Below are positions 5,204-27,592 of a stretch of DNA of 64,000 bases, in pieces. Within the stretch, counting starts at the first letter, position 1. Each line of letters starts with the position of its first letter. The DNA comes from Melioribacteraceae bacterium (GTDB lineage Bacteria > Bacteroidota > Ignavibacteria > Ignavibacteriales > Melioribacteraceae). The stretch spans positions 1,459,511-1,523,510 of the forward strand of contig CP129490.1 in assembly GCA_030584085.1 (NCBI GenBank), written 5' to 3'. The position numbers and the translations under genes were made by a program. A model generated the notes under the pieces. The model was not told the origin of the DNA and searched no databases. It was given only the letters and a program-made list of their open reading frames with translations.

Positions 5204-5206
5204 CTT

Positions 5207-5242: not shown

Positions 5243-5955
5243 TATTTTCACTTCTTTAATACTTAAATCAAATTGGTTAGATTTGGATACTGTTGAAGCA
5301 AAAAAGGGCAAAAAAAGGGTACAGTATTTTTCACGTGTTAAGCGAAGGAATTTCTTTTTGTCGAGAATAAATTTCGAAATGAAGAAAAATTTCTAAGAAG
5401 TGAATTCGAGAAGTTGCGAAGCGGACATGTAATGAAAAAAACCGGCAGGAGTTATTATAACTTTAGTGCTTTTTGAGTGAGTGCTTTGTAGGGACATGTT
5501 AACTTACATGCCAAAAATTAATCACCCTTTTACCTCATCGCGAGAATAATTTTAGAAGATATTTTGATATCTATAAATTCCCCTGTACAATTAATATTTA
5601 AGATTAATCTCAAGCATGATCATTTCTCATTAGTATATTTATAGATTATTCTTGATCATTTATTTTATTGTACTAAAATATTTTGATTACTTATTTGCGC
5701 GACAAACTCGGACTTGAGGTTGTTATTTAGCAATTATTTTTATTTACCTAAATTAAAAAAACTACTATATTGCCATGAACTTTTAAGCAGGTAAACATCT
5801 TGTTTTTTTTAGTAGATGTTAACATTTTTTAAACAGCTATTAAGTAAAAAGATTGAATAGATATTTCTAAATTTAGTTGCTTACAGTTAACAATTTTGCA
5901 AATCATTAATAACGTTCTGCCGCTTTTTATAGCCGCATACAAGACAGCTTAATCA
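5243..5955. other. Gene-free spacer
   Basis: I see no convincing gene in this 0.7-kb AT-rich stretch. The first third has patches of richer composition (about 5300-5520) without an open frame, which could be the remains of a decayed gene. The last 300 bases are very AT-rich and probably hold the promoter of the secreted-protein block that starts at 5956. Confidence 0.5.
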
Positions 5956-8031: not shown

Positions 8032-8043
8032 AAGGAACTAACA

Positions 8044-10131
8044 ATGAAGAAAGCATTACTTCTTTTAACGATAGTATTATTGAGCATGCCCATCATTGCT
8101 CAGACCTTTCCGGAAATAACAATAAGAGATATTCAATTTATTGCAGATCAAGATCTGTTAAATCCGCCTCACGATTATGAATCACCTTATGAAGGTGATA
8201 CAGTAGTTGTAACAGGTGTGATTAATGTGGCGCCATATTTTTACTCTACCGTTGATAGCGGTTTAACTTTAATTACAGGCGCACCTGCTATGTATATCCA
8301 AGATCCGAATGACCCGGAATTTGGTGGAATGCTTGTTAGATTTCCGGGCGGATCGGGTGCAGCTTTTAATTCACTCGATACCGGTATGGTTGTTAAAATT
8401 ACCGGCTATGTCGATGAATATTTTACTACAACCCAATTCAATATGATAAAATTTGAAGCCGGAGACGTAATTGATTTTAGCTCTCGACCACAACCTGTTC
8501 TGTTTACTTTAGATGAGTTTAGCGAAACCGGAACATCAGATCCTACTTACTTAGCTGAAAGATGGGAACACTCCTATGTTGAGTTTAGAAATGTGACTGT
8601 TAGTCATGCGTATTCATTTGGATCCGGTACCTATGTTATATTCGACGAAAACGGAACAGAAATATTAGTAGGAAATAAATCAACACACTGGCGGAACCAA
8701 CCCTTACCACTTCCCGGTACAGTGCTTGAGTATATCCGTGGATATATCGAAGATAGAACTAATATTGCACCCTATTATTATATGATAAATCCTGTATACC
8801 CTAATGACATAAAAGTTGGTTCTACTCTTCCCCCGAATGTTTCCAATGTTGATAGAGACATTGCGCTTGTTGGTTTTGGTGATCAAGTAGGTATTTCAGC
8901 AGACGCACTTGATTCAGATGGAACTATTAGTTCTGTGAAGGTATTTTATCAAGAAAACGGCGGTGCTTCGAAATCTGTAAACATGACTTTAACTGCCGGA
9001 AATACTTATACTGCCACATTACCTGCGTTCAATGATTCAACATTAGTTTCATTCTATGTTAAGGCGACTGATAATCAAGGCAATTCTTCCGCAAATCCGC
9101 AGGATACAGTGGAAAACAGATACTTTTACTGGGTATTAGATAGAGATATTACAATTCGTGATGTACAAAAAAGTCCTTTTGGCGGCGGTTGGAGTGCCTA
9201 TGATGGCTTTGAAGTAACTGTTTCGGGTATTGTAACTTCGGATACGTCAACAATTGGTTCTTCTGCAAGAGTACATGTACAGGATGGTACTGGTCCATGG
9301 TCGGGTATATGGGTTTTTGGCGATAACGTTTTACATCTTAGAGAAGGTGATAACGTCACCATAACAGGTACCGTAGATGAAGATTTCGATTATACACGAA
9401 TAGAAAACTTAACCAATGTTGTTATTAACTCTACAGGAAATCCACTTCCTGATCCTTTAGAAATTACAACTGATCTTGTTGCTACCTCGAGCAGCGGAAG
9501 TCTACCTGCCGAGTCTTACGAAGGTGTTTTGGTAGCATACTCTAATGTTACCGTAATTGATGAAAATGCTGACGGAAATGCGGGTCCTGATCAGGGTAGC
9601 GGCGGTAGCAGAAATTTTGGCGAAATTATTATAGCTGATGACAGTAATATTGGAACAAGAGTTGAACTGCAGCAGGGCAACAACGATTATCATAACTTCT
9701 GGGATTCATCTTTGGAAAATGAACCGATAAGAATACAAACCGGAAATAGTTTTGATAAAATTATCGGTATTCAATATTTCTCATTTAGCAATTACAAACT
9801 TGTTCCAAGAACCAATAATGATTTTGAAGGAATGACAACAAGTGTAGAGGATGAAGTTTTGACTGCAGATAATTTTGCATTAGCACAGAACTATCCAAAT
9901 CCGTTTAATCCTTCGACTGTAATTGAGTTCTCCATCCCAATGACTGGAAAAGTATCATTAAAAATTTATGATATTTTAGGTCAGGAAGTAATGAGCCTGC
10001 TAAATAAAGAAATGAACCGTGGTATTCATAGAGTTAATTTTGATGCTTCGAAACTTAGTTCCGGAATCTATTTTTATACTCTGCAGTCAGGTAATTATAT
10101 ACAGTCTAAAAAAATGATGCTTATTAAATAA
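8044..10131 (+). CDS. T9SS-sorted secreted protein with OB-fold-like domains
   Basis: This is a 695-aa protein with a signal peptide ending MPIIAQ. Two similar domains (about 20-235 and 375-590) carry the pattern VTVSGIV ... VHVQDGTGPWSGIWVF ... GDNVTITGTVDE. This resembles the OB-fold domains attached to secreted nucleases such as YhcR. Between them is an Ig-like domain (about 265-360). The C-terminus from NYPNPFNPST to KKMMLIK is a T9SS sorting domain. Nucleic-acid or sugar binding is an inference from the fold. It is followed by a terminator-like hairpin at 10141. Confidence 0.75.
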   Translation: MKKALLLLTIVLLSMPIIAQTFPEITIRDIQFIADQDLLNPPHDYESPYEGDTVVVTGVINVAPYFYSTVDSGLTLITGAPAMYIQDPNDPEFGGMLVRFPGGSGAAFNSLDTGMVVKITGYVDEYFTTTQFNMIKFEAGDVIDFSSRPQPVLFTLDEFSETGTSDPTYLAERWEHSYVEFRNVTVSHAYSFGSGTYVIFDENGTEILVGNKSTHWRNQPLPLPGTVLEYIRGYIEDRTNIAPYYYMINPVYPNDIKVGSTLPPNVSNVDRDIALVGFGDQVGISADALDSDGTISSVKVFYQENGGASKSVNMTLTAGNTYTATLPAFNDSTLVSFYVKATDNQGNSSANPQDTVENRYFYWVLDRDITIRDVQKSPFGGGWSAYDGFEVTVSGIVTSDTSTIGSSARVHVQDGTGPWSGIWVFGDNVLHLREGDNVTITGTVDEDFDYTRIENLTNVVINSTGNPLPDPLEITTDLVATSSSGSLPAESYEGVLVAYSNVTVIDENADGNAGPDQGSGGSRNFGEIIIADDSNIGTRVELQQGNNDYHNFWDSSLENEPIRIQTGNSFDKIIGIQYFSFSNYKLVPRTNNDFEGMTTSVEDEVLTADNFALAQNYPNPFNPSTVIEFSIPMTGKVSLKIYDILGQEVMSLLNKEMNRGIHRVNFDASKLSSGIYFYTLQSGNYIQSKKMMLIK

Positions 10132-10140
10132 TTTATTTTG

Positions 10141-10174
10141 GGCGATGCAAATTTTTGTATCGCCATATTTTTTA
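10141..10174 (+). terminator. Putative terminator after the OB-fold gene
   Basis: GGCGATGCAA pairs with TTGTATCGCC (one G-T pair) across a four-base loop, with a T-rich tail ending just before the next start codon. It may attenuate rather than stop transcription into the lipoprotein-receptor genes. Confidence 0.6.
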
Positions 10175-10180
10175 GAATCT

Positions 10181-11734
10181 ATGAAGAAATCAATTTTATA
10201 TAATCTTGTCTTCGCTTTAATAGTATTTGGATTTATATCTTGCAGCGAATCACTTACGGATAACCAAATTCCAAATTCTGCCCCCGATACTTTTATATTT
10301 TTATTCCCGGATAACGACATAAGCCAGCAGCCAAGCCGACTTCAAGTACACTGGTGGGGTGATGATCCTGACGGATTAATTGTTGGTTTTTATTTTAAGT
10401 GGGATGGTTTAGATGATCATTGGACTTTCACTAGCAAGAATGACAGTCTTTTCTCATTGCCTATAGGAACTGCGGACACTACATTTAGTTTTCTAGTAAG
10501 TGCTGCTGATAATGGTGGCAACGGTATTTATGATAATTCGGTGATGCAGAATGGAATTGATTACGGACCAGAACCATTTATTGATATGAATGATAATGGA
10601 GTTTATGATAATGGGGAACAGTTTTATGATATCGGCTTAATTGACCTTACTCCGGCCGAGAGATTATTCCCGATTAAAAATTCACCTCCTATAGTAGAAT
10701 GGAATGAAGCAAGTAGTCTTCCTCTCGTATCATTTCCGGTAATAACAGTTGGATGGAATGCAACTGATACCGACGGGGATGAATCTATAACTGAGATTGA
10801 AATTGCATTAAATGATACATCCAATTTTGTTGCACTTGGCGGCTCAACAAGACTTGTTACACTTCGAATACAAGATCTTGCGGCAGCATCCCCGCAAATG
10901 GAAATTCTATTAAATGCAGATGAAAACAATATTAATCCCGAATTGCTTGGTGGTCTAAAACTAGACGATAATAATAGAATAATATTAAGGGCTAAAGACA
11001 TTTCAGGTGGAGTATCTAAGCAAATAGTTCTTCCGGATACTTCAAGAGATTGGTTTGTTAAAAAGCCAAGGGGAAAGCTTCTCATTATTGATGATTATGA
11101 AGGGGGAGCTGAGGCTGCTAATTTTTATATAACCAGTTTTAACAGTCTAAATGGCGGGGTTTTGGTTGATAAATATGATGTATTCGATTTGGAAAATAAT
11201 TTATTACCTTATCCAAATATTTCATTTTTAGAAACACTTAAATTGTTTGACTACATCTACTGGTATTCCGATGCAAGTCCAAATCTTACTTTTGCAAACT
11301 TGGTAACGCAAAAATTTATAAATAATGGTGGTAAAATTTTCTTTTCAATGACTTTTGAAGAAACTTCCGGTGATTTCGCATTTGATCTAGCGACTTTACA
11401 AAATTTTCTTCCAATTGATTCATTAGGGCAGGATCAAGCCGTTCCATTTCTATTAAGAGGAGCTTCAATATTACCATCAAATTCAGGTTCAGGTTATCCA
11501 CAGTTAGAAACAACATCAACAGTAGGTTTTGTAAGAACATTTGTTCCATCGGTTACAGCGGTTGAAGTTTATGATTTAGCAAGTCAACAGATTAATGGAA
11601 ACATTAGCTTCATCGATAACTCAAAGAGTCTTTTCTTTATTGGAATCCCACTAAATAACGCTGATGGTATTTCCGGAAATGTTCTTAAATTATTAGAAAA
11701 AGTATTATTCGAAGAATTTGGCTTAAACTTATGA
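10181..11734 (+). CDS. Large lipoprotein of unknown function
   Basis: I place the start at ATG 10181 (MKKSILYN), because the longer frame would put 12 residues, encoded by the terminator hairpin, before the signal sequence. The protein is about 517 aa with a lipobox ending FGFISC. The N-terminal half has Ig-like motifs (DPDGLIVGFYFKW, then DTDGDESITEIEIALND). The second half, from GKLLIIDDYEGG onward, looks like an alpha/beta domain similar to glutamine-amidotransferase-like folds. Its stop overlaps the start of the TonB-dependent receptor by four bases, so the pair is translationally coupled, and a role as surface partner of that receptor is likely. Confidence 0.7.
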   Translation: MKKSILYNLVFALIVFGFISCSESLTDNQIPNSAPDTFIFLFPDNDISQQPSRLQVHWWGDDPDGLIVGFYFKWDGLDDHWTFTSKNDSLFSLPIGTADTTFSFLVSAADNGGNGIYDNSVMQNGIDYGPEPFIDMNDNGVYDNGEQFYDIGLIDLTPAERLFPIKNSPPIVEWNEASSLPLVSFPVITVGWNATDTDGDESITEIEIALNDTSNFVALGGSTRLVTLRIQDLAAASPQMEILLNADENNINPELLGGLKLDDNNRIILRAKDISGGVSKQIVLPDTSRDWFVKKPRGKLLIIDDYEGGAEAANFYITSFNSLNGGVLVDKYDVFDLENNLLPYPNISFLETLKLFDYIYWYSDASPNLTFANLVTQKFINNGGKIFFSMTFEETSGDFAFDLATLQNFLPIDSLGQDQAVPFLLRGASILPSNSGSGYPQLETTSTVGFVRTFVPSVTAVEVYDLASQQINGNISFIDNSKSLFFIGIPLNNADGISGNVLKLLEKVLFEEFGLNL

Positions 11735-14538
11735 AAAAATATTTGCTGATTTTATTCATAATTACTTCTCAATTATTACTTGCACAGACTAAAGGAAGAG
11801 TAGGCGGCAGTATAGTTGATGCTGCCACAGGCGATCCGCTACCTGGAGTGAATGTTTTAGTTAAAGGTACATACTTTGGTGCAGCATCTGATTTTAAAGG
11901 GGAATTCATAATTAATAATGTTACCGAAGGTTCATATACAATCGAAATATCTTTAATTGGTTATAAGACTTTACAATATACGGGTGTTGTAGTTGAGTCA
12001 AATAAGACGACGTTTTTGGAAGTTAAGATGGAAGAGTCAGTACTTACATTAGAACAAGATGTAATAGTAATTGGTGATAAGCCCTTAGTTGATATCGAGG
12101 AGACCCAGAGTAAAAAGACTATTACTAAAGATGATATTGAAATGGCCGTAGTAGAGGATATAAAGGATCTAGTTACACAGCAAGCTGGAGTTGTTAAATC
12201 TGATAATTCGATTCACATTCGAGGCGGCAGAAGTTATGAGAATGCATTTCTATTGGATGGAGTTTCGGTTCAAGATCCTCTTGCCGGAACTGGGTTCGGA
12301 CTGCAATTAAGTTCAAACGCGATTGAAGAGGTTGAAGTAATCACTGGTGGTTTTAATGCTGAATATGGTCAGGCTACTTCGGGTATTGTAAATGTTAGAA
12401 CAAGAGAAGGAAGTGAAAAGATATCTGGGTACTTCTCTTATAAAAGAGACAATTTTGGGGATAGATCATCCAGCCATGTATTTAATATAGATATTGCCGA
12501 AGCTAACCTTAGCGGACCGGAGCCAATCACAAGTGTCCTACTTCCTGCGATCGGATTAGATATACCCGGAAATATTTCTTTTTTCACAAGTTTCTACATG
12601 GGTTTATCGGATGGAATTACTCAAGGATTATATAAACCCACAGCTAAACAGCTTTATTCTTCTACGTTTAATGGGACAAAATTTGCACCAAGAGCAGAGA
12701 ATAGTTGGTTTTTTCTTGGTAAGCTGACTTATAGTATTACGCCAACAATGAAGTTAACTTATTCTTATAATCAATCAGTTAATATCAATCAGAATTCACA
12801 ATCATTACAGGCAAATTTAGAATACGTTGAACCGAGTCCGGGTTATCAATATACTTATCAGAACATTTTAGATAATGCGAACACATTTACACATAACAAT
12901 ATTTATAATACAATAAGTTGGACACATACACTTAACTCATCAACATTTTATGAAATCAAAATAAGTCATTTCTTCTCGAATCTAAGAGCTGATGCTAATG
13001 GTCTTTCTTGGTCAGAATACACAGAACCAAAAGATATAGTCACATTTCCTATTGAGTATTATAATCAAGGAAGAGATAGAATTGGCGTAATCCCGGGTGA
13101 TGGTTTGTGGGATGTTGGAAACCCATCAACTTGGAGAGATCATTACGTGGATGAATTATCATTCAAAGGAGATTTAACAAGTTTCTTTGATGAGAAGAAT
13201 AAATTTAAAGCGGGATTTAATTTTGTTTTTCAGGAAATGCAGCAGATAGATATTTATAGACCATGGATTGGTGAACTCGGATTAAATAATGATATCTATA
13301 AAGTTCATCCTGCGCGTGGTTCAATGTATGCTCAGGACAATATAAACTTTAGCGGGATGATTCTAAATTTTGGTTTAAGAATGGATTTTTGGTTTCCCGG
13401 TAAATATGTAGATGATGCGGTCAAGAATCCAGATGTAGTTACTATTCCAGATGAAATACGTGATCGTTATTATGAAGATTCATTCGGATGGTTTGGCGAT
13501 AGAAGATTCAAAGCCCGTTTGAGTCCCCGAATTGGAATATCCCATCCGGTTACAGATAATCAGATATTGTTCTTTTCGTACGGACATTTTAGTAAATGGC
13601 CAAGACCACAGTTCGTTTATGCAAAACTTAATCCAACGAGTGCTCAGTCTTCATTTCAAAAATTCGGAAATCCAAATTTAAATCCTGAGACCACAGTAGC
13701 TTATGAGCTGGGGCTTAAAACTTCGTTTTCTCAAAATGATGTTTTAACCGTAACGGCATACTACAAAGATATTTTTGATTATGTAAGAACAAGAACTGCA
13801 ATAATTCAATCTGCTCGATTTGCAAATCAATCCTTTATAACCTATGCCAATCTTGATTATGCTCGTTCGCGTGGAATAGAAATAGAGTATAGAAAACGGT
13901 TAGGCAATTGGTTTACCGGAATGTTTACATTTTCATATGCTATTGTAACAGGTAAAAGTTCATCTGCAGATGAAGGTGTTTTAATTTTAAGAGGTGATCT
14001 AGACGAAACGATCAAGGAAGAATACGTTTCATGGGATAGACCTTTTACTGCTTCAACAAGCTTGAATTTTAATATCAGGAAGGGAGAACCATTATTTGGA
14101 TTTGGGGAAGGCATACTTGATGATATTAGTATCTATACAAGACTATTTTTCCAATCTGGGAAACGTTACACACCAGCTGTGTTTTTGAACTCATATGATC
14201 CTGATGGGCGCCCTGAATACAACTTTGATAGAACAAACAGGTATGGTGAAATAGGTGATAACTGGTTCTGGATTGATTTAAATATTACAAAATATTTTGA
14301 AGTTGCTGGTTTGAATATGTCGGTATTCGCAGAGATAAACAATTTACTGGATACACAAAATTCAGCTATTATAAACCCGGTAACAGGAAAAGCGTATGAA
14401 TACGGTGATCCAACTCCTACGGATTGGAATGATCCGTTGTATCCGGATTTGCAGGCACCAATTTCACCTTATCCCTTTAATCCGGCAAGGTATTTAACAA
14501 AGCGAAATATAAAATTTGGTTTCAGCGTTCGCTTTTAG
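11731..14538 (+). CDS. TonB-dependent receptor (SusC/CarboxypepD-reg type)
   Basis: This is an outer-membrane, TonB-gated importer of 935 aa. The signal peptide (about 18 aa, ending LLLAQ) is followed by a carboxypeptidase-regulatory-like domain (residues 22-105; GGSIVDAATGDPLPGVNV). The plug is at about 125-230, with IHIRGGRSYENAFLLDGVSV and a NAEYGQATSGIVNV block. The rest is a beta-barrel ending in FGFSVRF, with a terminal Phe as expected for barrel assembly. The substrate is not evident. It sits between a coupled lipoprotein and a PorV-like protein inside a block of secreted proteins, so it may import products of that surface machinery. Confidence 0.9.
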   Translation: MKKYLLILFIITSQLLLAQTKGRVGGSIVDAATGDPLPGVNVLVKGTYFGAASDFKGEFIINNVTEGSYTIEISLIGYKTLQYTGVVVESNKTTFLEVKMEESVLTLEQDVIVIGDKPLVDIEETQSKKTITKDDIEMAVVEDIKDLVTQQAGVVKSDNSIHIRGGRSYENAFLLDGVSVQDPLAGTGFGLQLSSNAIEEVEVITGGFNAEYGQATSGIVNVRTREGSEKISGYFSYKRDNFGDRSSSHVFNIDIAEANLSGPEPITSVLLPAIGLDIPGNISFFTSFYMGLSDGITQGLYKPTAKQLYSSTFNGTKFAPRAENSWFFLGKLTYSITPTMKLTYSYNQSVNINQNSQSLQANLEYVEPSPGYQYTYQNILDNANTFTHNNIYNTISWTHTLNSSTFYEIKISHFFSNLRADANGLSWSEYTEPKDIVTFPIEYYNQGRDRIGVIPGDGLWDVGNPSTWRDHYVDELSFKGDLTSFFDEKNKFKAGFNFVFQEMQQIDIYRPWIGELGLNNDIYKVHPARGSMYAQDNINFSGMILNFGLRMDFWFPGKYVDDAVKNPDVVTIPDEIRDRYYEDSFGWFGDRRFKARLSPRIGISHPVTDNQILFFSYGHFSKWPRPQFVYAKLNPTSAQSSFQKFGNPNLNPETTVAYELGLKTSFSQNDVLTVTAYYKDIFDYVRTRTAIIQSARFANQSFITYANLDYARSRGIEIEYRKRLGNWFTGMFTFSYAIVTGKSSSADEGVLILRGDLDETIKEEYVSWDRPFTASTSLNFNIRKGEPLFGFGEGILDDISIYTRLFFQSGKRYTPAVFLNSYDPDGRPEYNFDRTNRYGEIGDNWFWIDLNITKYFEVAGLNMSVFAEINNLLDTQNSAIINPVTGKAYEYGDPTPTDWNDPLYPDLQAPISPYPFNPARYLTKRNIKFGFSVRF

Positions 14539-14574
14539 CAAAAAATTATATGCGATTAAGTTAAGGAAGATTAA

Positions 14575-15555
14575 TTGAAGCGATTTTTTTTCTGTTTTTT
14601 ATTCATTGCACTAGTCTCGGGTAATTTACATGCTCAGCTTTTCCCGACCTTAGGTGGTCAACGAGCTGGAATTTCTACGGCACAGTTTCTCAAAATAGGA
14701 GTTGGTGGACGTGCGACCGCAATGGGGGATGCTTTCATTGCTGTTGCTAATGATGCATCGGCACTTTATTGGAATCCGGCTGGATTAGTACAAACAAAAA
14801 GAGACGAAATACTAATTTCGCACAACCAATGGTTAGTTGATATTTCTCATCAATTTATTGGAGGTATTTATCACATCTCAAGTAACGATGTGATAGGTGT
14901 TTCTTTAACCGCGCTTCATATGGATGATATGCCCGTTACAACCGAAGTTAGACCTTTTGGAACGGGAGAGTATTTTACATTTGCCGATCTTGCAATTGGA
15001 TTCACTTATTCCAGAAAAATGACAGAGCAGTTTAGTTTTGGTGGAACGATAAAGTATTTTGAGGAAACTCTAGATAAGCTGAAGATGCGTGGAATTATGA
15101 TAGATCTTGGAACTTACTATTGGACTGGACTTGGGTCAACAAGGTTTGCAGTAACAATTTCAAATTTTGGAAATGAACTGGCACCGGACGGTGAAGTTGT
15201 ATTGTTCGGTAATAGAAAGCAATCTGAATGGCAATCATTCTCTCCACCAACGATATTCCGTTTTGGAATTGCACTAGAGCCATATCAAGATGAACAGCAT
15301 AGAGTAACCGCTTCTGCGCAATTGAATCATCCGAATGACAATAGTGAAAATGTTTCTGCTGGTGTAGAGTATTCATGGAAAGAAATCCTTTACGTTAGAG
15401 GTGGTTATAAAATAAATGTAGAGGGTCAAGATTTTACATTTGGAGCTGGAGTTAGTGCCCCAATAAGTTTTGCCGACATAACATTTGATTATGCCTATGC
15501 AAAATTTTCTAAGTTAGGTTCTGCTCATAGATTCTCATTATTGTTAGGGTTCTAA
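14575..15555 (+). CDS. PorV/PorQ-family outer-membrane protein
   Basis: The 326-aa protein starts at TTG 14575, preceded by AAGGAAG. The signal peptide ends near LHAQ. The GVGGRATAMGDAFIAVANDASALYWNPAGL segment is the hallmark of the PorV/PorQ family, FadL-like outer-membrane barrels used by T9SS. The remaining alternating strands fit a barrel of about 14 strands, ending in LLLGF. PorV carries T9SS cargo to the sortase. This copy lies in a gene block rich in T9SS cargo, but whether it is the general shuttle or a dedicated one cannot be read here. Confidence 0.8.
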   Translation: MKRFFFCFLFIALVSGNLHAQLFPTLGGQRAGISTAQFLKIGVGGRATAMGDAFIAVANDASALYWNPAGLVQTKRDEILISHNQWLVDISHQFIGGIYHISSNDVIGVSLTALHMDDMPVTTEVRPFGTGEYFTFADLAIGFTYSRKMTEQFSFGGTIKYFEETLDKLKMRGIMIDLGTYYWTGLGSTRFAVTISNFGNELAPDGEVVLFGNRKQSEWQSFSPPTIFRFGIALEPYQDEQHRVTASAQLNHPNDNSENVSAGVEYSWKEILYVRGGYKINVEGQDFTFGAGVSAPISFADITFDYAYAKFSKLGSAHRFSLLLGF

Positions 15556-15561
15556 AATAAA

Positions 15562-16647
15562 ATGAAGACGATTTTAATTATAATTTCGCTTTTTGTATTT
15601 GCATTATTATACACATCATGTGCTGATAAATTCGATGTAACTCAATTTGATTCGGCTTTTGATGATAATCCAAACATTGGCGACACGGTATATATTCAAC
15701 AATTTCCCGTTTGGCAAGGATTTAATAATCCTAAAGATTTAATTATTGGTAGGGAACCATTTTTGTACGTAGCAGATACTGATAATGATAGGATTGTAAT
15801 GATGAATGTTGCCGGCGATAATCTTGGAAACATTTCAATCAAAAAACCTATTGCACTTGCACAGGACTATCAATTAAATCTTATTGTTTGTGCGGAATAT
15901 GACACTACCATAAATGGTACACAAATAAATATGGGTGCGGTTTACAAAATAAATTTAGTTGATGCCGGACACATAATTGCAAACGCTAAAATTACCCGCT
16001 TATTACCCAAATCTAATTTTGATTTTAATCGACCTAATAGAAGATATACGGGTGCTGCAGTTTTCAGTGACAATTCGTTTTATATCTCGCGAACGGGACC
16101 GGAAAACAATAATCCGATAGACCCTGATAATGTAATTATGATCTTTAGAAAGAAGACTTTAACCGACGGGACAAAAGTAGATACATTAGTTGGAAGTTTA
16201 CCGTCATTTCAACCGACTGGAACAGGATTGATGTCCGCCTATGAAATAAGTTCACTTACTTCGCTTAATAATGGCACTATTGATTTTATAATGACCTTAA
16301 CCGGTGACACAAGTTTTAAAACACAATGGTTAAGATATATTCAAACGACAGATTTCACCGGTTATCAAAGCAGGCTCTCCGCTTTTTCATCTGATCTTAT
16401 GGCAGTTGATAAGTTTGAAAAGCCTGAAGACGCAACGATAGATAATGTTGGCAATATTTACGTTGCAGATGCAGCAAAGGATTCGGTATTTAAGTTCAGC
16501 AATTTCGGTGATGAGTTAACATCATTTGGTGGAAGTGACTTATTAAATTCTCCTCATGCTGTGGGTTATTTTGACAGAACACTCTATGTACTCGATACAG
16601 GTAATAACAGAATTTTGCGATTTATTTTATCGACAGAATTAGATTAA
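15562..16647 (+). CDS. NHL-repeat-like beta-propeller lipoprotein
   Basis: This is a 361-aa lipoprotein with lipobox LLYTSC. The body has NHL-type propeller strands: FLYVADTDNDRIVMMN near residue 70, then IYVADAAKDSVFKFS and LYVLDTGNNRILRF at the end. Such propellers usually bind proteins or ligands. It starts six bases after the PorV-like gene, so it belongs to the same transcript. No enzymatic motif is seen. Confidence 0.75.
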   Translation: MKTILIIISLFVFALLYTSCADKFDVTQFDSAFDDNPNIGDTVYIQQFPVWQGFNNPKDLIIGREPFLYVADTDNDRIVMMNVAGDNLGNISIKKPIALAQDYQLNLIVCAEYDTTINGTQINMGAVYKINLVDAGHIIANAKITRLLPKSNFDFNRPNRRYTGAAVFSDNSFYISRTGPENNNPIDPDNVIMIFRKKTLTDGTKVDTLVGSLPSFQPTGTGLMSAYEISSLTSLNNGTIDFIMTLTGDTSFKTQWLRYIQTTDFTGYQSRLSAFSSDLMAVDKFEKPEDATIDNVGNIYVADAAKDSVFKFSNFGDELTSFGGSDLLNSPHAVGYFDRTLYVLDTGNNRILRFILSTELD

Positions 16648-16701
16648 CTCTTTGAAAAATTAAAGTATTTTTTTTGCTCTTTTAATCTTCGGATTCATAA
16701 T

Positions 16702-17946
16702 ATGGAAAAACACCTTCGAGTGCTATTATTGGCACTCTTGTTTTCAGCGAACTTACTTTTTAGCCAAGAATTAGTAAAAATTGCTACTTACAACGTCTTG
16801 AATTATCCCGATAATTCGTTTACAAGAAATCCTTACTTTGCATTGATAATGGACGAGATTGATCCGGATATTTTAGTTGTTCAAGAAATTAAAAGCCAAA
16901 CGGGAGTTAATCAATTCAGATCAAATGTGCTAGGCTCAAAATATAATGCTGGGACATTTGTTGACGGACCCGATGATGACAGAGCGATTTTTTATAAAGA
17001 CTCTCTATTTACGTTTGTTTCAAATAATCCAATCAAGACAAGTCTTAGAGATATAAATGAGTTTACTGTAGTTCATAACTTTACTCAAGATACACTTAGA
17101 TTATATGGACTGCATCTTAAGGCCTCGAGCGGTTCGGATAACGAGCAACGAAGATTAGATGAAGTTACAGCATTAAGAAGTGTAACCGATCAGTTATCTG
17201 ATGGAGTGTATTTTATAGTTCTCGGCGACTTCAATGTTTATTCATCGTTTGAACCGGCTTATATAAAGCTTCTGGATAATTCAACGCCCGGATATGTGAT
17301 AGACCCAATAAACAAACCGGGAGGCTGGAATAATAATTCTGCTTTTGCAGAAGTTCATACTCAATCGACTAGAACTGATAATATAGGCGACGGTGGATCG
17401 ACAGGGGGTCTTGACGATCGCTTTGATCAAATTTTAATTTCGGAATCGATCTATCAACCCGGTGGGGTAGATTATGTAAGCGGTACTTATACATCCTTTG
17501 GAAATGACGGTAATCACTTTAACGGCTCAATAAATGACGGTACAAATACCGCTGTTGGTTCTGAAGTTGCAAATGCGCTTTATATTGCTTCAGATCATCT
17601 TCCTGTATATGCTGTTTTTGATTTTGGTATTTCAACCGGAGTTGATGATCCAGAGAATTCTGAACTAAATTTTGAATTATCTCAAAACTACCCTAATCCG
17701 TTTAATCCATCTACAAAAATTTCTTACTCACTTTCTGAAAACAGTAATGTAATTATAAAAATTTATGACATACTCGGAAAACAGATCGTTGAATTAGTAA
17801 ATGAAATAAAATTAGCTGGCACATATACAACTGAATGGAATGCATCGGATTATTCCTCGGGTATATACTTCTACTCTATCGAAGCCTCATCCATCAGTAG
17901 TGGTAAATATTTTTCAAATACAAAAAAAATGATGTTGGTTAAATAA
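16702..17946 (+). CDS. T9SS-sorted endonuclease/exonuclease/phosphatase-family protein
   Basis: This 414-aa secreted protein has the EEP fold of DNase-I-like enzymes: ATYNVLNYP near residue 30, VQEIKS near 62, GDFNVYSS near 175 and SDHLPVYAVFD near 300. These match the metal-binding and catalytic blocks of the family. The signal peptide ends near LLFSQ. From NYPNPFNPST to KKMMLVK it is a T9SS sorting domain, so the enzyme should be displayed on, or released from, the cell surface. Nuclease activity is the most natural reading, given the neighbouring endonuclease-I gene; phosphoesterase is the alternative. Confidence 0.85.
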   Translation: MEKHLRVLLLALLFSANLLFSQELVKIATYNVLNYPDNSFTRNPYFALIMDEIDPDILVVQEIKSQTGVNQFRSNVLGSKYNAGTFVDGPDDDRAIFYKDSLFTFVSNNPIKTSLRDINEFTVVHNFTQDTLRLYGLHLKASSGSDNEQRRLDEVTALRSVTDQLSDGVYFIVLGDFNVYSSFEPAYIKLLDNSTPGYVIDPINKPGGWNNNSAFAEVHTQSTRTDNIGDGGSTGGLDDRFDQILISESIYQPGGVDYVSGTYTSFGNDGNHFNGSINDGTNTAVGSEVANALYIASDHLPVYAVFDFGISTGVDDPENSELNFELSQNYPNPFNPSTKISYSLSENSNVIIKIYDILGKQIVELVNEIKLAGTYTTEWNASDYSSGIYFYSIEASSISSGKYFSNTKKMMLVK

Positions 17947-17977: not shown

Positions 17978-20900
17978 TTGATCAAGAAGTTATCCTACCT
18001 ACTTATGCTACTTTTTATTGCATCGGTAACGTACTCACAAGTATTCATATCCGAGTACCTTGAAGGAAGCAGCAATAATAAAGCGGTAGAAATTTTTAAC
18101 GGCGGAACAACTGCGGTTGATCTTTCAAACTACAGATTCGTCAGAGCAAACAATGGTAGTCCAACATTACAGGACTCACTTGTACTTGCCGGAACCTTAA
18201 ATCCGGGTGATGTGTATGTGTTGGCTAATGCGAGTGCGATAACAGCAATTTTAGATTCTGCAGATACTACAGGATCAATAGCCTTTTTCAATGGAGATGA
18301 TTATGTAGGTCTTCAGGAAAACCAAGGCGGGAATTGGGTAACGATAGACGCAGTTGGTAAGTTAGGTGAAGATCCGGGAACGGCTTGGCCGGTTGCAGGT
18401 ATCGCAAATGCGACTGCCGAGCACACTCTTGTGCGTAAATCGTCAGTTAATCAAGGAAATACAAATTGGACTGCATCGGCAGGTACTGATTCGACTAGTT
18501 CAGAGTGGTTAGTTTATCCACAAAATGATGTTAGCTATATCGGTTGGCACACCATGAATCCTCCAACAAGTTATCCGAATATATTCTTTTCTGAATATAT
18601 TGAGGGTGGATCAAACCGCAAAGCATTAGAGATTTACAACCCTGATACGGATTCAGTAGATCTTGCCAGTATTCAAATTGCTCAAGCAACCAATGGTGGC
18701 GGTTGGCAGTTTTATCATGTATTTCCAGCAGGAGCAAAAATAGCTCCCGGAGATGTGTGGGTGATTGTAGCAGCCGATGATTATTCTTCGGTTAGTTATG
18801 ATACAACTGATGCAGATGAAGTTTTACCTTATCCAAGTGTAGTCCATCATAATGGTGATGATGCCAGAGCTTTGATTTATATTGATGGTGTTGATACAAC
18901 TTTTATTGATATAATTGGTACACCGGATAGCGATCCGGGTAGCGGTTGGACAGTTGCCGGAATAGCCAATGCGACACAAAATCATACACTTGTTAGAAAA
19001 GCTGCGGTTACAGTTGGAAATACAGATTGGACAGCTTCAGCCGGAACTGATACTTCGGATTCTGAATGGATTGTTTATAATCAAGATATTTTTACTTATT
19101 TAGGCATTCATCCGGGTGCAGTACAATTACCTGATCCAGAGCCAAGTGAACATGTAACTAATTTATCTTCCACTGCCGGTGAAAATAATATAGAATTGGC
19201 TTGGACAGATGCTGGCGGAGCTCAACTTCCTGCAGGTTATTTAATTCTTATCAATACAACCGGAACATTTACCGATCCGATAGATGGCACTCCGGTTGCG
19301 GATGATAATGATTATTCTGATAATGCAGGTGCTCAAAATGTTGCACAGGGAGTACAGATGTTTAACTTTACAGGTCTTACTCCTGAAACGGAATACTTCT
19401 TCCAAATTTACCCTTACTCAAACAGTGATGTAGAAATAGATTATAAAACAGATGGATCTGTACCGGCAATTGCAGATACAACCTTAGAGGATGTGGTCCA
19501 AGTTGTCCCGAATATATTTTTCTCGGAGTATATAGAAGGCGGTTCAAACCGCAAAGCTTTGGAAATTTTTAATATTTCATCTGAAGTTGTAAGCCTAGCT
19601 AATGTTCAGATAGCTCAATCGGTAAACGGTGGTGGCTGGCAGTATTATCATTCATTCCCGTCTGGTGCTTCAATCAATCCAGGTGGTGTTTGGGTAATTA
19701 TTACTAATGATGATTTTACAGGTTATTTTGATGCTGCAACTGCAAATGAAATATTACCATTCCCAAGTGTAGTTCATTTTAATGGTGACGATGCAAGAGC
19801 GCTTATATTTATTGATGGTCCTGATACAACTTTTATTGATGTGATTGGTGTGGCAACTCAGGATCCTGGCAGTGGTTGGGCTGTTGCTGGCGTATCTAAC
19901 GCAACTCAAAACCATACTCTTGTCAGAAAATCATTCATTGAGCAAGGCAATACTAGTTGGTCATCATCTGCCGGAACAAATTCATCTAATTCTGAATGGA
20001 TTGTTTATGATCAAGATGTATTTGATCACTTGGGAATTCATGCATATGCGGAAGCTCCTGATATGCCACCGGTGGTATCTGACGTGTTCAGGGATAATTA
20101 TGTGCCATATGAAGATGAACCAGTAACCATAACTGCAATGGTAACAGACGATAATAATATTTTAAGCAGTATAATATTGTATTACAGCGTAAATGGAGTT
20201 GCTACTGCAAAAGAAAATATTATTCAAACCGAGATTCCTATGACTGCAATTGGTAACAATTATTATTCAGCCACTATTTCAGCAGATGTTTATGCTGACG
20301 GTGATTATGTTGAATATTACATTGTTGCAATCGATGAACCAGTAAAAGGACAAAAAGATACAAGTGCTACAGGTTCATTCTTTGTCGGAATTACAGATAT
20401 TAGAGATGTTAAAGTAGCTGACAATAATGTTCGTCCGCAATATCTTGGTGTTGGAGTAAGAATTATTGGAACTGCAACAGTTCCAACCGGAACTTTCCAT
20501 CCAACGAGATTTGAAGCTTATATACAAGATTCAACGGCCGGTATCGGTTTATTTAATTCTGCACTAACTACTCCTATTGTAACCGGTAAACGTTATGTGA
20601 TAGTTGGTAGATTAGATTTCTACAATGGATTGATGCAAATATCTCCACAAACAGAATCAGATATACTTGATTTAGGAAGTGTGGGACAAGTTGAGCCGTC
20701 TGTTGTAACAATTGGTGAAATTCTAGCAGATCCGGAATATTATGAAGGTATGCTAATAAGATTGAACGGAGTGTCTTTAGATGCAAGCACTCCATGGCAA
20801 TGCTCAGGTTCCGGAGCTAATTTAACATTCACGTCCAACGGAGAGCAAATAACAGTAAGAATAGATGCTGACACAGATATATGCGGTGCAGAGGAACCAA

Positions 20901-21298
20901 CTTGGCCGGTAGACTTACTAGGCGTAGTAGGCCAGTTTGATCCAAGTTCACCCTACAGTGAAGGATATCAAGTACTGCCAAGATCATTAGATGATTTCTT
21001 AACACCAACCGATGTTGATGAGGAAGAAATTCCACTTACATATGGATTAGAACAAAACTATCCGAATCCATTTAATCCAAGTACAACTATCAAGTTCTCA
21101 ATACCAGAACAAGGATTGGTTACCTTAAAAGTATATAATCTGCTAGGTGAAGAAGTCATAACATTAATTAACAATCAATTAGAAGCAGCATACCACGAAG
21201 TGAAATTTGATGCTTCACAACTAGGAAGCGGAGTTTATTTCTACCGAATTACCTCAGGTGATTTTGTCAGCACCAAGAAAATGCTTCTAATTAAATAA
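17978..21298 (+). CDS. T9SS-sorted protein with three lamin-tail domains
   Basis: The start is TTG 17978, after GGAGG. This exported protein of 1106 aa holds three lamin-tail-type domains (about 20-185, 200-375 and 510-690), recognised by FFSEYIEGGSNRKALEIYN, a WVIV strand and the repeating HTLVRK block. Between the second and third lies an Fn3-like domain. An Ig-like stretch, an OB-like domain (about 810-1020) and a T9SS sorting domain follow. Lamin-tail domains often accompany secreted nucleases. The last 226 residues are nearly identical to those of the next gene because of a 727-bp DNA repeat. Confidence 0.8.
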   Translation: MIKKLSYLLMLLFIASVTYSQVFISEYLEGSSNNKAVEIFNGGTTAVDLSNYRFVRANNGSPTLQDSLVLAGTLNPGDVYVLANASAITAILDSADTTGSIAFFNGDDYVGLQENQGGNWVTIDAVGKLGEDPGTAWPVAGIANATAEHTLVRKSSVNQGNTNWTASAGTDSTSSEWLVYPQNDVSYIGWHTMNPPTSYPNIFFSEYIEGGSNRKALEIYNPDTDSVDLASIQIAQATNGGGWQFYHVFPAGAKIAPGDVWVIVAADDYSSVSYDTTDADEVLPYPSVVHHNGDDARALIYIDGVDTTFIDIIGTPDSDPGSGWTVAGIANATQNHTLVRKAAVTVGNTDWTASAGTDTSDSEWIVYNQDIFTYLGIHPGAVQLPDPEPSEHVTNLSSTAGENNIELAWTDAGGAQLPAGYLILINTTGTFTDPIDGTPVADDNDYSDNAGAQNVAQGVQMFNFTGLTPETEYFFQIYPYSNSDVEIDYKTDGSVPAIADTTLEDVVQVVPNIFFSEYIEGGSNRKALEIFNISSEVVSLANVQIAQSVNGGGWQYYHSFPSGASINPGGVWVIITNDDFTGYFDAATANEILPFPSVVHFNGDDARALIFIDGPDTTFIDVIGVATQDPGSGWAVAGVSNATQNHTLVRKSFIEQGNTSWSSSAGTNSSNSEWIVYDQDVFDHLGIHAYAEAPDMPPVVSDVFRDNYVPYEDEPVTITAMVTDDNNILSSIILYYSVNGVATAKENIIQTEIPMTAIGNNYYSATISADVYADGDYVEYYIVAIDEPVKGQKDTSATGSFFVGITDIRDVKVADNNVRPQYLGVGVRIIGTATVPTGTFHPTRFEAYIQDSTAGIGLFNSALTTPIVTGKRYVIVGRLDFYNGLMQISPQTESDILDLGSVGQVEPSVVTIGEILADPEYYEGMLIRLNGVSLDASTPWQCSGSGANLTFTSNGEQITVRIDADTDICGAEEPTWPVDLLGVVGQFDPSSPYSEGYQVLPRSLDDFLTPTDVDEEEIPLTYGLEQNYPNPFNPSTTIKFSIPEQGLVTLKVYNLLGEEVITLINNQLEAAYHEVKFDASQLGSGVYFYRITSGDFVSTKKMLLIK

Positions 21299-21346
21299 CC
21301 TTTTGTTTTATCGTAAACCTCGGGGGCATTCCGCCTTCGAGGTTTT
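20620..21346 (+). repeat. 727-bp direct repeat, copy 1
   Basis: This region matches 23606-24332 at a fixed offset of 2986 bp. I count three base differences, near 20773, 20803 and 21324. It covers the OB-like and T9SS coding regions and the terminator. Confidence 0.9.
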
Positions 21347-21353
21347 TATTTTT
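21315..21353 (+). terminator. Terminator after the lamin-tail gene
   Basis: AAACCTCG and CGAGGTTT form the stem, with a long T-rich tail. It is part of the 727-bp repeat. Confidence 0.8.
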
Positions 21354-21371
21354 AAATGGACAATATTCTAT

Positions 21372-24284
21372 ATGATACTTACTCGATTTATTACGAACAC
21401 TATTCTAGTTCTCCTTTTCTCATCTTCAATATATTTTTCACAAGGATATTATGATGGAACGAGCGGTTTAACCGGGCAGGCATTAAAATTAAAACTGCAT
21501 TCAATTATTAATAATCATCATAAGCTTACATACGCACAAGTGTGGTCAAGTTTAGAAATTACCGACGAAGATCCACTAAATACCAACAATGTTATTCTTT
21601 TTTATACAGGCAGATCACAGGATAAAGATTTGAAAGATCAGGGATCCGGAGAAGATACTTGGAATAGAGAGCATGTTTGGCCGAAGTCGCATGGATTCCC
21701 GAATGAATCTGATACAGCGTATACAGATATTCATCACCTGCGTCCAGCTGATAGATCAGTTAATAGCAGCAGAGGTGATAAGGATTTTGATAATGGGGGT
21801 TCACCGCATGTAGAGGCTCCGGATACCTATACCGATTCGGATTCATGGGAGCCAAGAGATGAAATTAAAGGTGATGTTGCTAGAATGATGTTTTATATGG
21901 ATGTACGCTATGAAAATAGTGGATCCTTAGACTTAGAATTGGTTGATTACACAGGAACAAGTTCGGGTACACCCAACTTAGGTAAATATTCAACATTACT
22001 TGCCTGGCACTTCGCCGATCCAGTAGATGCTGCCGAACAAACGAGAAATGAAAAAGTTTATAACATACAAGGCAATAGAAATCCATTTATCGATCATCCC
22101 GAGTTTGTAACAGCTATTTACCAAAGCAGCGTTACTCCGGAACCTTTTAATCATGTTGAAGATTTCTTCGCACTTTCTCAAAATAATAGTTCTATAACTT
22201 TAAGCTGGAATGAGAACCCAGGTTCACAAGCTGCGGATGGTTATTTAATTAAATCAAGCAACACTAGTTTTGCATCTATTCAACTCCCAACAGACGGAGT
22301 AGCAATTTCGAATGATTTGAATGTTGACGATGGCTCCGGTGCTGTTAATCTAATTGCAGGTAACTCATCTTATACATGGTCAAACCTTTCTTCAAATACC
22401 GTTTACTATTTCAAAATTTTTCCCTACACAAATTCCGGTGCTAGTATCGACTATAAAGTTGACGGTACAATACCTCAGGCATTTGATACAACTCTTTCCG
22501 GAGGTAATATTGATCTGCCGAATTTGTTTTTCTCCGAATACGTAGAAGGCGGTTCTAATCGTAAGGCATTGGAGATTTATAATCCAACTGAGGAAAGTAT
22601 AAGCTTGGCGAATATTCAAATTGCCCAATCTGTGAATGGTAGGGGATGGGAATACTACCATACATTCGCCAATGGTGCAGTAATAAATTCTAAAGATGTG
22701 TATGTGCTAATTACCGATGACGATTTTTCAGGTTATTTCGATGTTGGATTAGCCGATGAAATTTTACCTTACCCAAGTGTTGTACATTTTAATGGAAATG
22801 ATGCTCGGGCATTAATCTATGTCGATAATGAAAATGAATACATAATAGATGTAATTGGAGTTCCAACGGAAGATCCCGGCAGCGGATGGTCTGTTGCTGG
22901 CATTTCTTCTGCAACTCAAAATCACACTTTAGTTCGCAAGCTGGAAATTACGAGCGGAAACACAAATTGGAGTTCTTCTGCCGGAACAAATTCAAACGAT
23001 TCGGAATGGCTGGTATATGATCAGGATGAATTTTCATATTTAGGTAATTATGGAAGTTCAGATAATCCTACTGATCTCCCTCCTTCCGTTTCGAACGTAA
23101 CCCGGAACCTTACTGTTCCTATGGAAGATGAAGTTTTACAAATAAGCGCAGATGCAACAGATGATAATGGAATAAATTCAGTACAACTGAATTATAGAAT
23201 TAATGGAAAAGCGAGCAGTTCAAATATGACCAAAGGAAGCGGAAATACTTATATAGGGTCAATATTTGCATCTGAATATGAAAATGGTGATAAAGTTTCA
23301 TTCTATATAACTGTCAATGACAATGCGACTGTTACTCAAAGCGATACCAGTAATACTTTTTCATTATTAGTTGGTATGTCGACTATTTCGGATGTAAAAG
23401 CTATGAATACCGATGGAATGCCAATACTAAATAATTTTGCTGTTATGGTAACAGGTACTGCTTCTGTATCAACCGGTACGTTTCATCCAAGTAGATTGGA
23501 AACTTTTATTCAAGATGATAGTAGAGGAATTTCTGTTTTTAACTCCAATCTTAATAATGAAATTGTTATTGATAATTCATACAAAATTGCTGGTATTATA
23601 AATAACTACAATGGATTGATGCAAATATCTCCACAAACAGAATCAGATATACTTGATTTAGGAAGTGTGGGACAAGTTGAGCCGTCTGTTGTAACAATTG
23701 GTGAAATTCTAGCAGATCCGGAATATTATGAAGGTATGCTAATAAGATTGAACGGAGTATCTTTAGATGCAAGCACTCCATGGCAATGTTCAGGTTCCGG
23801 AGCTAATTTAACATTCACGTCCAACGGAGAGCAAATAACAGTAAGAATAGATGCTGACACAGATATATGCGGTGCAGAGGAACCAACTTGGCCGGTAGAC
23901 TTACTAGGCGTAGTAGGCCAGTTTGATCCAAGTTCACCCTACAGTGAAGGATATCAAGTACTGCCAAGATCATTAGATGATTTCTTAACACCAACCGATG
24001 TTGATGAGGAAGAAATTCCACTTACATATGGATTAGAACAAAACTATCCGAATCCATTTAATCCAAGTACAACTATCAAGTTCTCAATACCAGAACAAGG
24101 ATTGGTTACCTTAAAAGTATATAATCTGCTAGGTGAAGAAGTCATAACATTAATTAACAATCAATTAGAAGCAGCATACCACGAAGTGAAATTTGATGCT
24201 TCACAACTAGGAAGCGGAGTTTATTTCTACCGAATTACCTCAGGTGATTTTGTCAGCACCAAGAAAATGCTTCTAATTAAATAA
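21372..24284 (+). CDS. T9SS-sorted endonuclease I (EndA-like) with lamin-tail domain
   Basis: I start the gene at ATG 21372, since the longer frame begins inside the upstream terminator. The signal peptide ends IYFSQ. The N-terminal 270 residues are an endonuclease-I domain: YYDGTSGLTG, the catalytic block NREHVWPKSHG, and DIHHLRPAD with SRGDKDF. This family includes secreted DNases such as EndA. Fn3-like, lamin-tail and OB-like domains follow, then a T9SS sorting domain. The final 226 residues copy the previous gene's end almost exactly. It probably cuts extracellular DNA. Confidence 0.9.
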   Translation: MILTRFITNTILVLLFSSSIYFSQGYYDGTSGLTGQALKLKLHSIINNHHKLTYAQVWSSLEITDEDPLNTNNVILFYTGRSQDKDLKDQGSGEDTWNREHVWPKSHGFPNESDTAYTDIHHLRPADRSVNSSRGDKDFDNGGSPHVEAPDTYTDSDSWEPRDEIKGDVARMMFYMDVRYENSGSLDLELVDYTGTSSGTPNLGKYSTLLAWHFADPVDAAEQTRNEKVYNIQGNRNPFIDHPEFVTAIYQSSVTPEPFNHVEDFFALSQNNSSITLSWNENPGSQAADGYLIKSSNTSFASIQLPTDGVAISNDLNVDDGSGAVNLIAGNSSYTWSNLSSNTVYYFKIFPYTNSGASIDYKVDGTIPQAFDTTLSGGNIDLPNLFFSEYVEGGSNRKALEIYNPTEESISLANIQIAQSVNGRGWEYYHTFANGAVINSKDVYVLITDDDFSGYFDVGLADEILPYPSVVHFNGNDARALIYVDNENEYIIDVIGVPTEDPGSGWSVAGISSATQNHTLVRKLEITSGNTNWSSSAGTNSNDSEWLVYDQDEFSYLGNYGSSDNPTDLPPSVSNVTRNLTVPMEDEVLQISADATDDNGINSVQLNYRINGKASSSNMTKGSGNTYIGSIFASEYENGDKVSFYITVNDNATVTQSDTSNTFSLLVGMSTISDVKAMNTDGMPILNNFAVMVTGTASVSTGTFHPSRLETFIQDDSRGISVFNSNLNNEIVIDNSYKIAGIINNYNGLMQISPQTESDILDLGSVGQVEPSVVTIGEILADPEYYEGMLIRLNGVSLDASTPWQCSGSGANLTFTSNGEQITVRIDADTDICGAEEPTWPVDLLGVVGQFDPSSPYSEGYQVLPRSLDDFLTPTDVDEEEIPLTYGLEQNYPNPFNPSTTIKFSIPEQGLVTLKVYNLLGEEVITLINNQLEAAYHEVKFDASQLGSGVYFYRITSGDFVSTKKMLLIK

Positions 24285-24332
24285 CCTTTTGTTTTATCGT
24301 AAACCTCGAGGGCATTCCGCCTTCGAGGTTTT
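23606..24332 (+). repeat. 727-bp direct repeat, copy 2
   Basis: This is the second copy of 20620-21346, about 99.6% identical by eye. The upstream parts of the two genes differ clearly, so the boundary at 23606 is sharp. Confidence 0.9.
24301..24332 (+). terminator. Terminator after the endonuclease I gene
   Basis: This is the same AAACCTCG/CGAGGTTT hairpin as at 21315, with one base changed between the arms and a shorter T tract. Confidence 0.7.
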
Positions 24333-26011: not shown

Positions 26012-27409
26012 CTATTTAAGTAAAATCATCTTCCTCGAAGATGTTCTATTCGATGTAACAAATTCATAAAAATAAACGCCGCTGCTAAGAGAGTTATCAT
26101 CAAGTATTACTTCATGATTACCGGCTAATTTCATCCCGTCATCAAGGATTTTAATTTTTTCACCGAGAGTATTGTAAAGAGTTAGTGTGACTTCAGCCGG
26201 TGAAGGAAGAGTGTACACAATCTTTGTTGAGGAATTAAAAGGATTGGGATAATTTTGATATAGTATGAAGTCCTTTACTAATGGTTCTTCTGGAACATCC
26301 ATGACATTTGTATAAGTGTATAAATATTTATAATTAGGATCCCAGCTTGAACCATTCCACATAAACATTTCCATGATTGTTACATTATCGTTTAAATCAT
26401 AGAGCAAATTGGCCTGACTCTGATTAACCCATTGATTATTCTCCCAATTCTGTGAGGTTTGGGTAATTAAAAGATTATTTGTATATGTGAAGAGTTCTCG
26501 ATATTTCCATTCTTCATATGGATCATACATCCATGAAGACTGAATAGATTCAGTAAGAACATTTCCTTGATAAATGTTTTCCACTTGTTCAACATCTTGC
26601 CATACAGTACCGTTATGATGTTTATAGATGCTATAAGTCAAATTGTCATTTGCATTATATGCTGAGGAATCACTTGCTAGTGGAATCCAAGTAGAATCAT
26701 GCCCTTCAGTATAACTTGTTTCATGATTTCCTGACTGAGTATAAGTGTAACTTGTTCTTGAAGTTGGCTGCCAGTCAACTCCGTTATGATAATAAACATA
26801 ATCCATTTCGACCTGTGAAAGAGAATTGTACTGATTTGTCAACTTGTAGTTATAACTCCAAGTTGGTGGTGATTGCCAATAGTTGTAAGTACTTCCAACC
26901 ATTTCTACCATTCTTTGTTGAGAATCATATGTGTAGTCGGTTTTGGAACTTGGTTGCCATGCTGAGTTAGTCCAGTAGTAATCTATCATTTGTGAAGGAT
27001 TATTTTCGGCATTATAAGAGCTTTCCGTTTTACTTGCATTCTGCCATGCTCCTCCTGCATAAACTTGAAAGAGAGAAACCGATACAAGTCCCTGCGCGTT
27101 GTAAGTATTTTCCATTCGATAACTGTTTTCCCAAGATGAGGTATTCCATGTCTGGCTCAAATATTCTGTTAGCTTACCATCATTGTTATAGCTGTACAAT
27201 GCACGGTAATAATTCTCGTATTGACTGTTTTGATATCTCTGCAAAAGCATTTCAGATACCATGGTTGTGCTGTCGGAAAGAAGTGTAACTTTTACTTTAT
27301 CGGACATATAAAATATTGTTGAATCAATTTTTGGAATGTGTTTACTTTGCCCGATGGTTATTGTGGATAATAATATTACAAGGATTAAAAATCGTAGTGA
27401 TTGTTTCAT
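26012..27409 (-). CDS. T9SS-sorted YD-like repeat protein, paralog B
   Basis: The start is ATG 27409 (MKQSLRF), since it follows GGAGGGG; the longer frame adds 11 residues before the signal peptide. The 465-aa protein has repeats such as YRALYSYNNDGKLTEYLSQ and WENSYRMENTYNAQG across residues 55-370, and a T9SS sorting domain (NYPNPFNSST to RKMILLK). It is the first gene of the pair and precedes paralog A by 77 bp. No catalytic motif is seen. Confidence 0.75.
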   Translation of the reverse strand: MKQSLRFLILVILLSTITIGQSKHIPKIDSTIFYMSDKVKVTLLSDSTTMVSEMLLQRYQNSQYENYYRALYSYNNDGKLTEYLSQTWNTSSWENSYRMENTYNAQGLVSVSLFQVYAGGAWQNASKTESSYNAENNPSQMIDYYWTNSAWQPSSKTDYTYDSQQRMVEMVGSTYNYWQSPPTWSYNYKLTNQYNSLSQVEMDYVYYHNGVDWQPTSRTSYTYTQSGNHETSYTEGHDSTWIPLASDSSAYNANDNLTYSIYKHHNGTVWQDVEQVENIYQGNVLTESIQSSWMYDPYEEWKYRELFTYTNNLLITQTSQNWENNQWVNQSQANLLYDLNDNVTIMEMFMWNGSSWDPNYKYLYTYTNVMDVPEEPLVKDFILYQNYPNPFNSSTKIVYTLPSPAEVTLTLYNTLGEKIKILDDGMKLAGNHEVILDDNSLSSGVYFYEFVTSNRTSSRKMILLK

Positions 27410-27592
27410 AATGCCCCTCCGTTGTTTGAAAGCAAACAACATGCCCTGGAGAGAAAATGAATAGGAAAGTTTTGGCGGAAAAAATGTTTATTTGAAAAAT
27501 AATTAACATACTTCGCTAATTATTGTCAAACAACTTGATATCCGATTTGATTTATAGCATTTGGACTTTAGGTTATTTGGGGAAAAGTTTTC

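Follow-up and report, generated by a model that had tools for sequence, protein, structure and literature searches.

Near-identical 3′ ends of two neighbouring T9SS cargo genes with unlike heads, a probable case of gene conversion

How can two neighbouring genes that differ strongly upstream end in virtually the same 727 bases, export signal and terminator hairpin included? Genes A and B raise this question; they lie in the window, the whole stretch of 64,000 nucleotides analysed here (positions 1459511-1523510 of a single 3,742,376-base contig, 99.35% complete). The features concerned are collected in Table 1. An initial annotation had given coordinates and a three-base difference for the repeat, and both proved right: compared in register at an offset of 2986, the two copies differ at 3 of 727 bases, at 20773 (G/A), 20803 (C/T) and 21323 (G/A). 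The first two differences are silent (dN 0), the third sits in the terminator stem and keeps its pairing (G.U to A-U). Both edges of the tract are sharp according to in-register match counts: the left flank (20400-20599) matches the copy-2 side at 109 of 200 bases and the right flank (21347-21546) at 59 of 200. The 3′ edge falls 48 bases past the stop and includes the terminator hairpin. The genome holds two full-length matches to this tail; the other 38 among the matches listed are short (66-94%), the next best after A and B being short sorting-domain matches. Chance is excluded as a source of this identity. A repeated terminator was also considered as its source and rejected, as the hairpin pattern occurs only twice in the genome at up to three mismatches.

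Table 1. Positions in the window of genes A and B, their shared tail and the upstream neighbours
Feature	Position	Strand	Basis
TonB-dependent receptor	11689..14535	+	profile match
PorV-like outer-membrane protein	14575..15552	+	profile match
Endonuclease/exonuclease/phosphatase (EEP)-family protein with T9SS tail, directly upstream of A	16702..17946	+	profile match; synteny with G025
Gene A: 3 lamin-tail domains, 2 OB-like folds, T9SS type A sorting domain; 1106 aa, TTG start	17978..21298	+	profile matches
Copy 1 (727 bases): 3′ end of gene A plus its hairpin	20620..21346	+	sequence comparison
Gene A T9SS sorting domain (Por_Secre_tail)	21059..21283	+	profile match
Gene A terminator hairpin, 13 pairs, then full T-rich run	21315..21345	+	terminator scan and folding
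Gene B: endonuclease I, fn3-like (match under its cut-off), lamin-tail domain, 2 OB-like folds, T9SS type A sorting domain; 970 aa from ATG at 21372	21372..24284	+	profile matches
Gene B OB-like fold 1; junction 23606 inside, at the long strand's end	23418..23684	+	AlphaFold model and VIA-align 2
Copy 2 (727 bases): 3′ end of gene B plus its hairpin	23606..24332	+	3 differences from copy 1
Gene B OB-like fold 2; entirely within the tract, overlaps DUF5689 match	23676..23984	+	model and profile match
Gene B T9SS sorting domain (Por_Secre_tail)	24045..24269	+	profile match
Gene B copy of the hairpin; T run breaks off at tract end	24301..24331	+	folding; position from offset

A and B have in common a diverged C-terminal block of fn3-like domain, lamin tail, linker, OB-like folds and sorting domain. 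Their sorting domains scored 47.4 and 46.3 bits against TIGR04183 (cut-off 23) and belong to T9SS type A. The head of gene B matches endonuclease I (PF04231) with 153.3 bits at a gathering cut-off of 25, covering positions 1-235 of the 235 in the profile; a nuclease domain was also sought in gene A in Pfam and NCBIfam, and none matched. Different heads with the same export tail, as the repeat had been summarized, is a correct description. The combination of a lamin-tail domain with a region of two OB folds resembles ExeM-type nucleases, and ExeM of Shewanella lost its activity when the part carrying two putative OB folds was deleted (PMC6085458). A and B match the ExeM model NF033680 over the lamin-tail part at 161.3 and 65.3 bits, far under its cut-off of 1300. 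Furthermore, ExeM ends in a GG-Cterm anchor whereas A and B end in a T9SS tail, and the profile search found no EEP domain in A or B, this domain being encoded in the separate upstream gene. The products of A and B are probably secreted, DNA-handling proteins, and the locus, with its TonB-dependent receptor and PorV-like protein, probably serves secreted nucleic-acid breakdown and uptake.

The initial annotation had the upstream domains differing strongly. They do, yet an alignment of 488 codons ahead of the junction shows them to be homologous. Over these 488 codons we obtained a dS of 2.06 and a synonymous difference (pS) of 0.70; in the 225 codons inside the tract dS is 0.013, dN is 0 and no amino acid is changed. 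Counted as sites, about 233 of 331 synonymous sites differ before the junction versus 2 of 153 after it (Fisher p 8e-55). In 30-codon windows taken from the C-terminus, pS runs at 0.00-0.09 inside the tract and at 0.50-0.91 beyond the junction window. In their upstream parts A and B are paralogs of long standing whose synonymous sites have reached saturation, and the two genes show the pattern of concerted evolution, i.e. paralogs alike at silent sites in one segment (dS 0.013) and diverged in homologous flanking sequence (2.06).

Where the junction falls in the protein was read from structural models. Foldseek with a 405-residue model gave low-TM matches only, and the OB part was then modelled alone (189 residues, pLDDT 84). 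This model contains two successive folds, residues 1-89 and 87-189, and both align over the whole domain to OB-type domains of tRNA synthetases and replication proteins (Z about 9-10, rmsd mostly 2-3). Foldseek with the OB-part model placed HIN domains on top at a TM of about 0.4, with RPA70 also among the matches. The OB domain in the tail is likely to bind DNA. The junction corresponds to model residue 64, about residue 746 of B, at the end of a long strand in the first OB-like fold, and each protein therefore retains its own first strands of this fold and has the rest in common with the other. The tract had been said to cover the OB-like domain, the T9SS domain and the terminator; more exactly, there are two OB-like folds, and its left end lies within the first of them. 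For the same reason, domain replacement, the other explanation offered at the outset, is only loosely right.

Taken together, we consider it probable that ectopic homologous recombination between A and B without crossover, that is gene conversion, overwrote one 3′ end with the other. A recent conversion, as initially proposed, is supported by the drop of pS from 0.70 to 0.013 at a single point and by like steps at other T9SS tails described below. Copying would have started in the stretch coding for YNGLMQIS and ended past the terminator hairpin, where the likeness of the A and B sites stops. No likeness between A and B is detectable beyond the right end of the tract, and a simple two-ended conversion consequently requires that the terminators were homologous before. 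The donor was perhaps A and the recipient B. After copy 1 comes TTATTTTTAA, and the terminator scan rates this copy as terminator-like; copy 2 loses its T-run at the tract end and is absent from the terminator-scan list although both hairpins fold. The assignment comes from the T-run, which is complete in A and truncated in B, and it favours A as donor weakly. The outcome would be two cargo proteins that differ in their heads and have one second OB domain and one T9SS sorting signal in common. T9SS is expected to go on exporting both, and gene B is expected to have kept its nuclease head.

Three other explanations were weighed against gene conversion. Unequal crossing-over or tandem duplication within the tail, with the extra gene then lost by deletion, is rather unlikely here, but such events seem to occur in the family. 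In another genome of the same family (G010), gene 1750593 has a head like that of 1787033 (50-base blocks 74-100% identical over the first 650 bases, then 58-70%) and a sorting domain like that of 1789240 (97.9% over 236 nt), which fits a crossover in the tail with loss of the gene in between. At the A/B locus the DNA downstream of A does not follow that of copy 2, as the match count of the right flank tells, and a deletion would need to start at the terminator. It is very improbable that a repeat was collapsed or duplicated in assembly: the contig is untrimmed and its ends overlap by 10,960 bases, but over that length they align without a mismatch and with a single gap, so that the consensus error looks low, and the tail copies have distinct flanks besides their three differing sites, A and B are full-length open frames and the nearly complete genome is one contig. 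Purifying selection on the export tail, which would have to hold an old duplicate identical, was rejected with near certainty, because sorting domains are conserved at the protein level whereas here silent sites and terminator bases are nearly identical too, and own-genome sorting-domain pairs have a median nucleotide identity of about 0.60.

A and B are old tandem paralogs, and they lie in a conserved locus whose secreted proteins have a probable role in processing nucleic acid. In G025 (same family, other genus), gene order is preserved for the seven genes that match window positions 5953-17943, with protein identities of 65-85%, and the position of A and B is taken by one 1664-aa gene that combines lamin-tail domains, an OB part and a sorting domain. 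Its OB part is 54-55% identical to those of A and B, far below the A-to-B value, but G025 belongs to another genus, and A and B are almost one sequence in that part. The syntenic locus of G025 also carries short repeat units, each of about 88 bases, in tandem (L051, 9311-9706). G090 (same species, 80% complete) gave no match to the linker-OB region of B at E 1e-30, and only short matches to the DNA of the locus. The G002 contig in this neighbourhood has another T9SS gene adjoining the ortholog of 26012-27442 and then ends. Relatives were also searched for the direction of copying, which failed as G025 is too distant, G090 is without a match and the G002 contig ends. In the comparison with relatives, which had been named as a check, similar tail copying was seen in some of them, but no strain pair with and without the A/B event was found, G090 having no match to the linker-OB region of B.

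We were interested in whether other tails in the genome behave like those of A and B. T9SS sorting domains gave 134 hits, 131 over the curated cut-off and 3 under it; eight of the 134 tails have no PNPF-type motif and were retained, and two hits are one gene seen at both overlapping contig ends, so that 3737823 was dropped and 133 remained. The 3′ ends of the 134 were compared, then the sorting domain alone for the 133, with near pairs defined as lying on the same strand within 10 kb. Sorting-domain identity of at least 0.85 was found in 7 of 87 near pairs versus 1 of 8691 other pairs (p 6e-14), an excess determined at 3′ ends only, which 5′ ends may equally show. A and B form the most alike tail pair found in this genome. 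In four of the seven near pairs the identity 600 to 300 bases before the domain is at or near background (0.54-0.62). It amounts to 0.78 for A/B, where this interval straddles the junction, and to 0.85 and 0.92 for 1816345/1824451 and 3171406/3174691, respectively.

Steps in pS like that of A/B, counted in the same 30-codon windows, recur at several tails. The pair 2471223/2472862 is 94.9% identical over 570 nt with heads without significant likeness (best E 2.7), and pS rises from 0.10-0.38 to 0.57-0.87. For 2252360/3203750, which lie 951 kb apart and are patchy upstream, identity is 94.9% over 826 nt and pS is 0.00-0.57 over 15 windows, then 0.51-1.00. A weaker step was observed for 3171406/3174691 (91% over 932 nt; pS 0.00-0.63, then 0.51-0.81), and no clear step but a gradual rise for 1816345/1824451, which are alike at both ends and not in the middle. 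Near pairs alike over longer stretches, such as the latter at both its ends, would resemble plain duplicates. The codon profiles of the tail pairs show graded ages. One further T9SS tail, 486651, contains an in-frame stop and is 83% identical over 831 bases to the intact gene 1387312; it looks like a decaying copy.

The same comparison was carried out in G010, a genome in one contig with 90 sorting-domain hits, of which 88 were compared. Here identity of at least 0.85 was reached by 2 of 64 near pairs versus 2 of 3764 other pairs (p 0.002). One near pair, a pectate lyase (whose start lies outside the fetched stretch) and a 327-aa protein, has 254 bases in common that are 98.8% identical, a stretch opening 3 bases ahead of the sorting domain and closing 2 bases after the stop; outside the last 100 residues the two proteins show no significant likeness, and the 327-aa protein gave no Pfam match beyond its sorting domain. 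The other near pair, 1783947/1787033, is alike across the whole shorter gene. Heads and tails occur in new combinations around 1750 and 1786 kb of this genome: 1786155 resembles 1789240 in its head and not in its tail, and 1750593 resembles 1789240 in its tail and not in its head.

A wider survey of 80 loci from named records yielded 92 near pairs in 37 loci, and identity of at least 0.85 in 2 of the 92, which speaks against a process that is frequent everywhere. One near pair, in L085, reached 0.852. In L091 (DYHH01000001.1, a Melioribacter roseus metagenome assembly) the neighbouring T9SS genes 2951-7222 and 7716-11516 have a common 3′ end of about 1.1 kb that reaches 249 bases beyond the stop, with 96-100% identity in 50-base blocks and an upstream patchwork of 50-98%; an assembly effect is possible in this case. 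A within-locus repeat scan of 110 sequences detected further repeats at T9SS genes in IGN3 (CP053447.1), at 62-554 and 3986-4477 of L124 and at 8123-8356 and 13588-13821 of L099, with 94-98% identity. The start of one copy is at, or within, the terminal part of a T9SS gene, and the rest is mostly outside open frames. These repeats were rejected as clear tail swaps, since most of one copy, or of both, falls outside open frames.

The 98.8% pair and the re-paired heads and tails of G010, together with the 1.1 kb pair from Melioribacter, point to a broader reading, to which we give an even chance. In these T9SS-rich bacteria the 3′ ends of cargo genes may form a recombining pool, in which the sorting-domain sequence of about 230 bases would be copied whatever the heads, perhaps anchored where the DNA of the PNPFNP motif is conserved and sometimes reaching into the adjoining domain and the terminator; neighbours would be homogenised and heads re-tailed. 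Our limited literature search found no tail copying between T9SS genes in titles and abstracts. Homogenisation of 3′ ends by gene conversion is already known, and its recurrence at sorting tails could be the new part.

The closest precedent is found in Helicobacter pylori, in the 3′ ends of babA/babB and homA/homB. Pride and Blaser 2002 is cited in the papers on these ends. According to the passages drawn on here, the 3′ ends of both gene pairs undergo concerted evolution via intragenomic gene conversion, and in homA/homB low Ks is limited to the 3′ segment (PMC2795765, PMC3960876). As with A and B, these are surface-protein paralogs whose 5′ parts diverge while the 3′ parts stay alike within a strain. 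However, homogenisation is seen in many strains of H. pylori and for A/B in one genome; the homogenised end is not described as a secretion signal in those passages, while the A/B tract comprises the T9SS sorting domain and the terminator; and, unlike in H. pylori, genes of G010 without alike heads also share a tail. For the gingipain and hemagglutinin genes of Porphyromonas gingivalis gene conversion is named as a route to variation in the portion of the report used (PMC5266723). They resemble A and B as T9SS cargo with modular, rearranged domains behind different catalytic heads, but the modules that vary there are, as far as that portion goes, adhesin domains differing between strains, and the piece common to A and B is the 3′ end.

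This locus shows that a probably DNA-binding OB domain and an export signal can stay common to two secreted proteins with unlike heads. If tails swap as units, a new head could become a secreted protein by acquiring an existing export signal, and trees of whole cargo genes would mislead. A genome in which about 130 genes carry one kind of export signal lends itself naturally to studying how a common tail sequence steers ectopic recombination.

Elsewhere, the window contains a chromosomal integron (47901-62122) with an integrase at 47901-48911 (TIGR02249, 401 bits, cut-off 265). Its genes are set apart by attC-like repeats of about 230 bases at 49855, 50920, 53827, 54741, 57159, 58864, 60044, 60897 and 61887. 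Three genes of the array have T9SS tails (50028-50921, 53942-54736 and 57272-58768). At the array end, 62167-62785 and 63090-63617 code for a pair of RelE/ParE-like and HipB-like proteins, with a Fic-like one encoded on the opposite strand; all three matches are under the curated cut-offs. The overlapping ends of the contig (G000:C1) correspond to 1-10960 and 3731418-3742376 (L316 and L317), and this overlap makes a circular genome probable, with a length some 11 kb below the recorded one.
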